Below, one piece after another: positions 32,739 to 37,511 of a DNA stretch of 46,942 nt. The stretch is from a bacterium (GTDB lineage: Bacteria; Patescibacteriota; Minisyncoccia; Portnoybacterales; JAKAHB01): contig JAKAHB010000003.1 of the NCBI GenBank assembly GCA_021815315.1, positions 1 to 46,942 on the forward strand. Direction: 5' to 3'. Each line of letters opens with the position of its first letter. The first letter of the stretch is position 1. A program made the position numbers and the translations under genes. The notes under the pieces are model-generated. The model had not been told where the DNA came from, made no database searches, and saw only the letters and a program-made list of their open reading frames with translations.

Positions 32739-33482
32739 TTATTCAAATAAAAGCAGTATTGCCATTATCGCAATTCCGCCCAAAAATGCAACCAATTGCG
32801 CCAAAGAATGTTTTGGCCGACATTCCTTGTGAATTTCCGGGATCAAAGCCGCGCAAGCGACATAAAAAAAGCCCCCGATGGTCAAGGCCAAAATAAAGGT
32901 GATAAACAGGCCAGATCCAAAACCAAAGATAATAACAATCAAGGCTCCCAAAAGTGCGAACAAGGCGGTAACAAAATTAAGGAACAAGGCTCTTTTTCTG
33001 CTGAATCCGGCGTGCACTAAAATTCCGAAGTTACCGATTTCTTGAGGGATTTCGTGGAGCACCACCGCCAAAAAAGTGGTTATTCCCAGCGGGACGGAAA
33101 CTAAAAAACTGGCGGCGATAATCATCCCGTCAATGGCGTTGTGCAGGGAGTCGCCGATTAGATTGTTGATCCCCACGGGATGAATATGGGCGCCACTGGT
33201 GGGGACATGACAGTGTCGCCAGCAAACGATTTTTTCCAATAGTAAAAAAATAAAAACACCCCCTAAAATAAAAGCCCCGGTTTTAACCGAAAAGCCGTCG
33301 TTTTTGGCCACTTGAGGAATCAAATGAAAAAAAGCATCGCCCAGAAGAGCTCCCGCGGAGAAGCTGACCAAGAAAAAAATGGTTTTTTCCAGGGTTTCTT
33401 TTTTAAAGCTTAACCAAAAAACACCCAGCAAGGAAAGCAGGCTGACAAAGAGAACGCTGATTAAAATATAAAAGACTGTCAT
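32739..33482 (-). CDS. ZIP family metal transporter
   Basis: GALLGDAFFHLIPQ, GDSLHNAIDGMIIAASF, LHEIPQEIGNFGIL. Confidence 0.93.
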   Translation of the reverse strand: MTVFYILISVLFVSLLSLLGVFWLSFKKETLEKTIFFLVSFSAGALLGDAFFHLIPQVAKNDGFSVKTGAFILGGVFIFLLLEKIVCWRHCHVPTSGAHIHPVGINNLIGDSLHNAIDGMIIAASFLVSVPLGITTFLAVVLHEIPQEIGNFGILVHAGFSRKRALFLNFVTALFALLGALIVIIFGFGSGLFITFILALTIGGFFYVACAALIPEIHKECRPKHSLAQLVAFLGGIAIMAILLLFE

Positions 33483-33521
33483 GATAGTTAAATTATAACA
33501 CAACTTTTGAATTTCTTTTCA

Positions 33522-33550
33522 TTGACATTAAATCGATAAGTTTCTATATT
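33522..33550 (+). promoter_or_regulatory. Sigma-70 promoter for the 146-aa ORF
   Basis: TTGACA - 17 nt - TATATT. Confidence 0.7.
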
Positions 33551-33575
33551 GCGTTTAAGCGGAAAGGAGGGGCCG

Positions 33576-34016
33576 ATGAAATTAAGAGGCGAAATCCCAA
33601 TCGTGGGCTGGGCGGAGGAATTCTTGGCCGTTAACCCCAGGGCATCTTTTTGTCTGGGGCCGGAGATCTACAGCTTTTCTCCAGAAAGATTTTTCTTGCG
33701 GCTAGAGGTTGAGCTGGGCGGCATCTCGTTCTCTTTCCCGCCTTTTGATCCGGCCATGGCGGTTTCCGGGTTGCCCAAAAGAGTTCAAAAGCTCTGCTGG
33801 GTTATTGCTAAAAGCAAAAAGGCGGAAAGCTTTAACCGGCTGGCCGACGCGTTGGCAAAAGATTCTCGCCTGAACATTGAAGAAAACGGCGGGATAATCA
33901 GTTTCGTGCTGATGCTGGACATTATCACCGATTATCTGGTGTTAACCCCGGTGGAAATCCCCGCCTTCCTGTTCTTCCATTCCCAACGGAGGCCATCAGG
34001 TTTGGCCTGTTGCTAA
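33576..34016 (+). CDS. Hypothetical 146-aa protein upstream of the RT locus
   Basis: Start MKLRGEIPIVGW with GAAAGGAGG SD; followed by its own terminator. Confidence 0.75.
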   Translation: MKLRGEIPIVGWAEEFLAVNPRASFCLGPEIYSFSPERFFLRLEVELGGISFSFPPFDPAMAVSGLPKRVQKLCWVIAKSKKAESFNRLADALAKDSRLNIEENGGIISFVLMLDIITDYLVLTPVEIPAFLFFHSQRRPSGLACC

Positions 34017-34040
34017 CCTCGCCACGGCGAGGTTTTTTTG
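34015..34040 (+). terminator. Rho-independent terminator
   Basis: AACCTCGC-CACG-GCGAGGTT followed by T-run. Confidence 0.8.
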
Positions 34041-34097
34041 TTGCCTCTCTTGCGCTCAACAATAAAAAGTTTTGTGCGATAAAAGCCGGCATAGAAC

Positions 34098-34126
34098 TTG
34101 ATTTTTATCTTCTTTGATGCTAAACA
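34098..34126 (+). promoter_or_regulatory. Putative promoter of the structured ncRNA
   Basis: TTGATT - 17 nt - TAAACA with TGC extended -10; would start transcription near 34132-34136. Confidence 0.4.
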
Positions 34127-34132
34127 AAAGGC

Positions 34133-34472
34133 AGTGGGGCTGCTTTGTTTGGTTTAACGCCGTAGCGTTAGGCCGAACGGGTCGTTTGCAACAAACGACT
34201 CAATGAAGAGTTGGCGCCTTAAGAGCCGAGCCGAAGAGTTCTTCCCCCCTGGGCTTTAGTGAAGTCGGAAGAGCGGCCACGCCCTGGCGGTCGCCAGCGG
34301 CTTGTGCCAACGCCTGGGTTTTGGCCCAGCGACGGTAAGCTCTACGGCCAGGAGGGAGACCGGCACAAGTCCGCTTAGGCAAGCGGCCTGCGGCGCTTAG
34401 AGGTTCAAGATTCGTCTCTGGATCGCGGCCTCGTACGAGCCCCTGGGGGGATGAGAGTCCCCCCTTTTTTTT
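34133..34472 (+). ncRNA. Highly structured putative ncRNA upstream of reverse transcriptase (retron msr/msd candidate)
   Basis: 5' GGGGCT (34136-34141) pairs with 3' AGCCCC (34438-34443); hairpins TAACGC/GCGTTA, GTCGTTTG/CAAACGAC, CTGGC/GCCAG, CTTGTGCC/GGCACAAG, CCGCTT/AAGCGG; ends in terminator. Confidence 0.6.
34445..34472 (+). terminator. Rho-independent terminator of the ncRNA
   Basis: GGGGGGA-TGAGAG-TCCCCCC followed by 8 T. Confidence 0.85.
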
Positions 34473-34510
34473 CTTTAACAAACGAATAAACAGAGAAGGA
34501 GTCCCGGCCC

Positions 34511-35608
34511 ATGAAGCAATTAAGTTTTGCTTCTCTTTGGGCGGGATATACTCGCGCTCAAGCAGAAGCCATCGGATTTTTGGCGGAAGAGCTTTCGTTC
34601 AGCGCTTTCCGGTTGGCTGAAGCTCTCCAAAATATTTCCTACCAAAAAAAGGCGGTAGCAAAAAAATCCGGCGGAGTAAGAACGATTTACTCCCCCAATC
34701 AGAAGTTGAAGAGGGTGCAAGAGAAATTAAACATTTTTTTCTACCGCTGGAAAATTGATCAGCGACAATTTGGTTGCCGTCCCGAAGGTTCGCCAGTCAA
34801 AAACGCCAAACACCATGTTTGGTTTACGAGCGAAGAAAGCACCGGACGAGTTCCTCGCTGGACTCTTCAGCTGGATTTGAAGGATGCTTTTCCTTCGGTG
34901 ACCAGCGATCTGTTGCGGGAGATGTTTCTGAAACTTATTTTGGAGGATTCATCGCTGGACAAGCAAGTCGCCGAGGAAGTGGCGACTTTTTTAGTCAAGC
35001 TGACAACCCACAACGCCCGGCTGCCCCAAGGAGCGCCGACTTCCCCATATCTCTTCAACCTGGTATTGGTGCACAGCGGCGTGATTGCCAGAATTGCCCA
35101 GGTTTGCGGCAAAGGAAAAAAGTTTTCAATCTATGTTGACGACCTTACGGTGTCGTCGCTGAAGAAAGAAATAACCTGGAATTTTGCCAATCGCTTAATT
35201 GAAGCCATTGAAGAAGACGGCTGGCTGAAAGTTAACCGCGAAAAGTCACGTCGCAATAACATTCGTTGCGGCGCGCATCGGATAACCGGCGTGTCGTTGG
35301 GCCGAGTTAAAATAACGAGCAACCGCCGGCGTTTCAAGGCGAGTGAGGTCTATCGCTACAAAATAGCCTTGTCCCAAAAAACGTTAAATCGGTATCGCGG
35401 ACTGATCTTCCGCGCCACCAAAATTATGATGTCCGGCCGGCTACCGGATCAGGAAACCGACGGAATGAGCTTGGAGCAAATCCTCGGCTACATCGGCTGG
35501 ATCAAGGAGGCCGGCCAGGAGGAGCAAAAAACCAGCCCCAAGGTTTCCAAAGCCATCCAAGAATTCTTCTGGGCCTTGGAGCTTCAAAGGAGTACCAACG
35601 GTCCCTAG
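34511..35608 (+). CDS. Retron-type reverse transcriptase
   Basis: KKSGGVRTIYSP, GSPVKNAKHHV (NAxxH), LQLDLKDAFPS, LPQGAPTSPYLFNL, FSIYVDDLTVSS, HRITGVSLG. Confidence 0.92.
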   Translation: MKQLSFASLWAGYTRAQAEAIGFLAEELSFSAFRLAEALQNISYQKKAVAKKSGGVRTIYSPNQKLKRVQEKLNIFFYRWKIDQRQFGCRPEGSPVKNAKHHVWFTSEESTGRVPRWTLQLDLKDAFPSVTSDLLREMFLKLILEDSSLDKQVAEEVATFLVKLTTHNARLPQGAPTSPYLFNLVLVHSGVIARIAQVCGKGKKFSIYVDDLTVSSLKKEITWNFANRLIEAIEEDGWLKVNREKSRRNNIRCGAHRITGVSLGRVKITSNRRRFKASEVYRYKIALSQKTLNRYRGLIFRATKIMMSGRLPDQETDGMSLEQILGYIGWIKEAGQEEQKTSPKVSKAIQEFFWALELQRSTNGP

Positions 35609-35609
35609 T

Positions 35610-35634
35610 CCCCGCTTTTTCTAGCGGGGCTTTT
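35610..35634 (+). terminator. Rho-independent terminator after RT
   Basis: CCCCGCT-TTTTCT-AGCGGGG followed by cTTTTTa. Confidence 0.8.
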
Positions 35635-35645
35635 TATTTTTTAGC

Positions 35646-37511
35646 CTAGTTACTTTGTTGTTCGCCTGGCGTGTCGTTCTTTTTTTCTTCAAATTCCCCT
35701 TCTACGGTTTTATTGTCGCCGGCTGGTTGCTCTCCCGGAGCAGCCGGGGGTTCGCTGGCGGTTCCTTGCTGTTTGTAGAGCTCTTCACCTATTTTTTGCG
35801 CCGCTTGGGAAAGTTCCGCGGTGGCTTTTTTTATAGCTTCAAGGTCGTCGCCTTCTTTGAGTTTTTTCAGCTCTTCAATTTTTTCGTTGACCTCTTTTTT
35901 AATTTCCTCGGAAATCTTGGCGTCGTTTTCGCGGATGGTTTTTTCGGCGGTAAAAATCAAAGTATCGGCGATATTTTTGGTTTCAATTTTTTCTTTCTTC
36001 TTTTTGTCTTCTTCGGCGTGGGCTTCCGCTTCTTGCCTCATTTTTTCAATTTCTTCTTTGGAAAGCGCTCCGGAATCCTTGATGGTAATATTCTGTGATT
36101 TTCCGGAGGCCTTGTCTTTGGCGGTGACGTTTAAAATTCCGTTGGCATCAATGTCAAAAATTACTTCAACCTGCGGAATGCCGCGAGGCGCGGGAGGAAT
36201 GCCATCTAGCATAAACCGACCCAACGTTTTGTTGTCCGTGGCCATCGGCCGCTCTCCTTGGAGGACGTGAATCTCAACCGAAGGCTGATTGTCAGCCGCG
36301 GTGGAGAAAATTTGAGACTTGGAGGTGGGGACCGTGGTATTGCGCTCTATTAAAGGAGTCGCGACTCCGCCCAGAGTTTCAATGCCTAGGGTCAGCGGCG
36401 TGACATCAAGAAGCAAGACGTCTTTCATCTCTCCGCCAAGAACCGCTCCTTGAATTGCCGCACCCATGGCCACGCATTCCATCGGGTCAACTCCTCTTTC
36501 AATCTTTTTACCCACGGCGTCTTCCACGAATTTTTGCACAATTGGCATTCGAGTCGGTCCGCCAACCAAAATGATGCGGGTGATGTCGTCAGGCACCAAC
36601 TTGGCGTCTTTTAGAGCTTGGTCAATCGGTCCTTTTAACCGCTCCATAATGGGGTGTACCAATTCTTCCAATTTGGCGCGAGAAATTTTCATTTGCAGGT
36701 GCTGCGGGCCTTGGGCGTTAGCGGTGATAAAAGGTAAATTGATTTCGGTCTCTTGCGTGGTTGAAAGTTCGATTTTGGCTTTTTCAGCCGCTTCGCGGAC
36801 GCGGGTAATGGCCATTTTATCCGCGGATAAATCAACGCCGGTTTGCTTCTTGGATTCGTCCACAATATAATCCATCAATATTTTGTCCATGTCTGTTCCT
36901 CCAAGCTGGGTGTCGCCAGAAGTGGAGACGACTTCAAAAACTCCATCGCCAAAGTCCATAATGGTTACGTCTAGGGTGCCACCGCCGAGATCAAAAACCA
37001 AAATCTTCTCGCTTTTTCCCGATTTATCCAGGCCATAAGCCAAGGCAGCCGCGGTTGGTTCGTTGATAATGCGGACAACTTCCAGCCCGGCAATAGCGCC
37101 GGCATCTTTGGTTGCTTGTCGTTGAGCGTCGTTAAAATAGGCCGGAACCGTGATTACTGCCTTCTCCACTTTGTCGCCCAAAAAAGCCTCTGCGTCTTTC
37201 TTTACTTTTTGCAGGATGTAAGCAGAAATTTGTTGCGGAGTATATTCTTTCCCGTGGATAGTGAATTTATCGCTGGTCCCCATTTTTCTTTTAGCGGCCG
37301 CGATTGTCCCTTCGGGGTTGGTGACGGCTTGTCGACGGGCCGGTTCCCCAACTAGCAGCTCGCCTTCTTTAGTGAAAGCCACCACGGAAGGGAAGGCTTT
37401 TCCTCCGACAGAAGTCCCCTCGGCCGAAGGAATAATTTGCGCCTTGCCACCTTCATAAAAAGCGGCAGCTGAATTTGATGTCCCAAGATCTATTCCGATT
37501 ATTTTTGACAT
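35646..37511 (-). CDS. dnaK: Molecular chaperone DnaK
   Basis: [46 protein letters not shown]. Confidence 0.98.

Follow-up and report, generated by a model that had tools for sequence, protein, structure and literature searches.

What kind of element do a reverse transcriptase (RT) gene and a structured RNA form when they stand together with no recognisable effector beside them? Retrons are described as bacterial defence elements that make DNA and in which a complex of RT, RNA and DNA restrains a toxic effector. The locus studied here lies in a stretch of 46,942 nucleotides from a Patescibacteria (CPR) genome of the order Portnoybacterales, which we call the window. At the edge of the contig (window 1–545, −) the 5' third of a gene for 16S rRNA is present, which is useful for placing the host. 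The original prediction had read the locus either as a divergent retron or as a DRT-type pair of RT and noncoding RNA (ncRNA).

The RT gene and the RNA upstream

The RT is encoded by an intact open reading frame (ORF) of 365 aa at 34511–35608 (+), with an ATG start and the Shine-Dalgarno sequence AGAAGGAG. Every motif named beforehand was found in it (KKSGGVRTIYSP, NAKHH, LDLKDAFPS, LPQGAPTSP, YVDD and ITG), and the catalytic motifs LDLKDAF and YVDD are undamaged. NAKHH, at residues 98–102, is the NAxxH of region X, and ITG, at residues 259–261, is the VTG at the start of region Y with a V-to-I change that is also present in Vc81 (PMC6868368). The nearest relative of this RT is L034, encoded in a Ca. 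Portnoybacteria genome (G006) of the same order and a different family, with 38% identity over the matched region. The features of the locus, some of which draw on L034, are as follows.

34098–34126 (+): possible ncRNA promoter, TTGATT-17-TAAACA with extended −10; read from the sequence, weak
about 34130–34472 (+): structured ncRNA, retron-like msr-msd; fold z −3.1, same anatomy in L034
34136–34141 (+): a1-like arm GGGGCT; two compensatory changes versus L034, not significant alone
34142 (+): candidate priming G
34147–34178 (+): msr-like hairpin 1, 14 bp; folding and comparison with L034
34179–34201 (+): msr-like hairpin 2, 10 bp; folding and comparison with L034
34202–34437 (+): presumed msd (template) region, placed by its position between the hairpins and a2
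34438–34443 (+): a2-like arm AGCCCC; folding and comparison with L034
34445–34472 (+): intrinsic terminator between the ncRNA and the RT; terminator scan
34511–35608 (+): retron-type RT, 365 aa; models, trees and fold matches
35610–35629 (+): terminator behind the RT gene; terminator scan

The segment of about 335 nt before the RT had been described as dense in hairpins, and its folding bears this out: positions 34128–34476 gave a minimum free energy of −159.4 kcal/mol (z −3.1), and none of 100 shuffled sequences was as stable. When folding was limited to the 260 nt next to the RT, z was only −1.0, and the full RNA was needed for the signal. The strong terminator expected behind the RNA came first in the region's list of intrinsic terminators (GGGGGGATGAGAGTCCCCCC followed by T8, 34445–34472), and its end lies 38 nt from the RT start codon. 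The promoter claim stood in part: the boxes can be read and the relatives have better ones (TTGAC-17-TA) at the equivalent place, but those of the window are weak and do not pass a sigma-70 scan of the region. The same is true of the proposed closure of the RNA by an a1/a2-like helix. GGGGCT can pair with AGCCCC and the pairing gains support from comparison with relatives, but these 6 bp are not above chance in the window alone, where the best long-range helix is a different one (p 0.13). The G after the a1-like arm sits in UGC in the window, L034 and L035, whereas the priming G of retrons lies in a conserved AGC (PMC6868368). Searches of Rfam at the gathering score and at E ≤ 10 gave no family for the ncRNA, only three weak matches far below gathering and mostly outside the RNA, so that no housekeeping RNA model matches it.

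Family of the RT

The PADLOC and NCBIfam profiles pointed to retrons most strongly. RVT_1 was the only Pfam domain above cut-off. Among the PADLOC models those of retrons came top (RT_VI 1.6e-38, II-A 2.6e-32, III-A 2.9e-31), and in NCBIfam the retron St85 model reached 1.3e-32 (113 bits, under the model's curated cut-off of 235), the group II model 3e-11, and the DRT models, far under their cut-offs, 2.7e-4 (Drt3a) and 4e-3 (Drt2). Matches at E < 0.001 in a sequence search of the PDB were retron RTs. A moderate-quality AlphaFold model (pLDDT 67.7), compared with the PDB by Foldseek, gave retron RTs at all of ranks 1–11, followed by group II-type RTs; the first DRT structure, DRT9, appeared at rank 31.

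It is highly improbable that the gene encodes the RT of a group II intron or of a diversity-generating retroelement (DGR) with an RNA unrelated to it. RVT_1 is a generic domain and the value for the group II model is not negligible, but the window RT and the retrons were set apart from group II and DGR RTs at 100/99 in a tree whose DGR side was one DGR RT, and trees of 37 and 45 RTs split the window RT from group II at 100/100. In addition, 16S rRNA was the only Rfam family over the window, no template/variable-like repeat was seen near the RT (within 33400–35700), and the RNA-RT arrangement recurs in relatives. The RT is retron-type, neither group II nor DGR.

The second half of the original prediction, a DRT-type system, found no support in ancestry: the DRT models did no better than 3e-4, where the retron models reached 1e-32 to 1e-38, and the DRT structures ranked far under those of retrons. 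A separate matter is whether the RT and ncRNA act as DRTs do, making by themselves a non-branched, repetitive or coding DNA as the defence product. DRT9 consists of an RT and an ncRNA without a separate effector (PMC12489045), and since the locus has this same two-component form, DRT stays usable as a working analogy. The NAxxH motif and the retron-like closure argue against such an action, as do the profile and structure rankings, and a DRT2-like endless frame was looked for with the result that no stop-free frame runs through the RNA on either strand. We regard DRT-like action as improbable. By contrast, the divergent retron that had been proposed is well supported by the models, trees, fold matches and the conserved upstream RNA.

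A set of solo RTs and a recurring RNA plan

Close relatives of the window RT are rare. A single-sequence search of genome contigs with it gave no relative, and with A2 the Portnoybacteria locus was the only close match. No close relative was seen among viral contigs, and phage and plasmid RTs had only about 24–31% identity to the window RT. With a six-sequence profile, retron-like RTs were detected in 25/387 genomes of the class, one per genome. L044, L111 and L113 resemble RT-protease retrons of type XI and L112 groups with them, while L040 and L045 were placed among typed retrons.

Seventeen RTs from 17 Patescibacteria genomes, one of which (L048) comes from another part of the phylum, are solo genes, for the most part with housekeeping genes on either side. 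The flanks identified were radical SAM/glycosyltransferase, RNase HII/L32, SecG/UPF0047, TatD, archease, Mur ligase, MurJ and gyrase B. In these neighbourhoods no gene recurs as an effector would, and no recognisable linked or fused effector was found. The separation of RNA and RT by a terminator, with no effector, holds for the window as had been stated, and it recurs in relatives.

In the tree of 45 RTs, for which relatives had been gathered with the window's own lineage as query, the 25 other retron RTs (Ec67, St85, I-A, HTH-associated, RT-protease and the typed ones of Patescibacteria itself) formed one clade (99/96; 100% of 200 bootstrap trees). This clade leaves out all 17 solo RTs, that of the window among them, and the tree of 37 RTs agrees (88/95); both are to be read with long branches, an uneven sampling of retron types (not all 13) and no DRT RTs in the data. 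Monophyly of the 17 solo RTs was neither shown nor rejected (p-AU 0.11).

Several further peculiarities were observed among the RTs collected. The second aspartate of YxDD is replaced in L043 and L023 (YVDG/YIDG), L047 (YADA), L041, L115 and L118 (YVDN/YADN) and L042 (TDN). In the trio L114, L116 and L046 (100/100), PQGxPTSP is altered to VQGGNASGD, PVGLPASPD and VVGGPASPE. L119 (G293) is a short divergent RT of 236 aa in a dnaK-grpE-hrcA region; the window RT also adjoins dnaK, possibly by coincidence. A HicA-type toxin gene lies upstream in L043, where HicA/HicB-like toxin-antitoxin genes (716–1211) directly precede the ncRNA-RT unit. The presumed ncRNAs of the Patescibacteria RT-protease retrons L111 and L113 have a TGTxTTCGCG hairpin motif in common.

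The RNA of L034 follows that of the window in its order: promoter box, closing arm, two hairpins, variable middle, second arm, terminator hairpin, Shine-Dalgarno sequence and RT. The closing arms differ in sequence (ACTGGCT/AGCCAGT in L034, GGGGCT/AGCCCC in the window). Because MAFFT misaligned the 5' halves of the L034, L035 and L036 RNAs, we paired the helices element by element, by hand on the structure, which makes the counts lean towards compensation. Between the window and L034 there were 2 compensatory changes in a1/a2, 4 in hairpin 1, 1 in hairpin 2 and 2 in the hairpin after a2; between L035 and L036 the numbers were 1, 4, 0 and 5. Of the covariation suggested as a check, compensatory changes between relatives are present, though in few sequences. 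The hairpin directly behind the second arm recurs in L034, L035, L036, L037 and L047.

For 15 solo RTs, the 260 nt upstream, which in some cases take in the end of the preceding gene, had a mean z of −3.16 compared with −0.38 for RT-internal controls (Wilcoxon p=0.0003). RNA duplex energy was uninformative as a test of the closing helix, as the duplexes bridged inner hairpins, and a test of uninterrupted helices was used instead. By this test, long end-to-end helices beat shuffles over the solo set (Fisher p=9e-5), with a strong signal in L038, L048, L041, L114 and L116; taken singly, the window and L034 do not exceed their shuffles significantly. The plan is not universal among the solo RTs, because L042 and L046 offer little space upstream for an RNA.

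Retrons usually carry an effector (PMC12548924), and the locus might be an ordinary tripartite retron whose effector is encoded elsewhere in the genome or is the neighbouring 146-aa protein (33576–34016, +). This ORF, about 80 nt upstream and in the same orientation, has a strong promoter (TTGACA-17-TATATT, 33522–33550) and its own terminator (34015–34034), the latter separating it from the RNA. It has no Pfam match, is single-copy in its own genome and has no relative among the genomes of the order. At the L034 locus it is absent, and there the RNA-RT pair persists between radical SAM and glycosyltransferase genes. AlphaFold gave no confident model of the protein (pLDDT 37). A weak match in G018 (E=0.025) was rejected, as it fell in an unrelated-looking ORF. 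Near dnaK in the order's other genomes there was no Zip gene and no 146-aa ORF, and no empty site was found. The ORF is a possible partner, without conservation to back it, and we consider the tripartite explanation unlikely. The window RT itself carries only RVT_1 in Pfam, with no recognisable fused effector. The best PADLOC model is RT_VI, and type VI-like retrons differ in having an HTH gene: such genes stand before L051 and L060, two type VI-like RTs, and none was seen at the window or its close relatives. Here "no effector", at the window and in relatives, means that none was recognised.

Proposed mechanism and relation to known systems

We consider the locus, with a probability of roughly 70%, to be a divergent solo (effector-less) retron-like element in which the ncRNA and RT make branched RNA-DNA, with a likely function in phage defence. 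Against this reading stand the closure, which does not reach significance in either the window or L034 by itself, the UGC around the candidate G and the place of the RT outside the sampled-retron clade.

A discrete ncRNA of about 335 nt would be made from its own promoter and ended at the intrinsic terminator, with its ends closed by the a1/a2-like helix and the two msr-like hairpins just inside. As the terminator and the start codon are so close together, read-through of the terminator is the probable source of RT expression, and the RNA would thereby outnumber the enzyme. With retron biology (PMC6868368) taken as guide, the RT would bind the RNA via the msr-like hairpins, prime from the guanosine directly behind a1 (G34142) and copy the msd backwards, from about 34437 towards 34202, into branched RNA-DNA. 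The predicted DNA would start near 5'-CGTACGAGG, be complementary to the msd and be joined to G34142. Because no linked or fused effector was found here or in relatives, the function would have to lie with the RT-RNA-DNA complex as such or with a protein encoded in trans. Phage defence is the most likely role.

The locus resembles retrons in its RT family, its NAxxH and VTG-like motifs and an ncRNA directly before the RT gene that has msr-like hairpins and a candidate closing helix. It differs from them in having no recognisable effector, a terminator between ncRNA and RT, a candidate priming G in UGC and an RT that does not fall in the clade formed by the 25 sampled retron RTs. Retron-Bth1 is likewise a retron RT without an obvious effector, unclassified among retron RTs (PMC12548924), a likeness drawn from its published description. 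However, Retron-Bth1 is a single case, found on an extrachromosomal assembly, and its RT gene contains a group II intron, whereas the window belongs to a recurring Patescibacteria set. DRT9 and other ncRNA-bearing defence RTs share the two-component form with no separate effector; their RTs belong to a different family by models and fold ranking. Our search of the open literature, outside which the Mestre 2020 census lay, turned up neither a description of effector-less retrons as a recurring set nor one of retrons in Patescibacteria/CPR.

We tentatively suggest that the solo RTs may represent two-component retrons that are specific to Patescibacteria, branch deeply outside every typed retron and act without a toxin, possibly resembling retrons before they had effectors; this is a real possibility that we hold with less confidence than the reading of the locus itself. 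The recurrence of an RT and RNA with no recognisable linked effector, in hosts whose genomes measure about 0.5–1.5 Mb, asks what the DNA product does alone, and it raises the question whether retron effectors were added later. Each solo unit spans only about 1.5 kb and can be tested directly.
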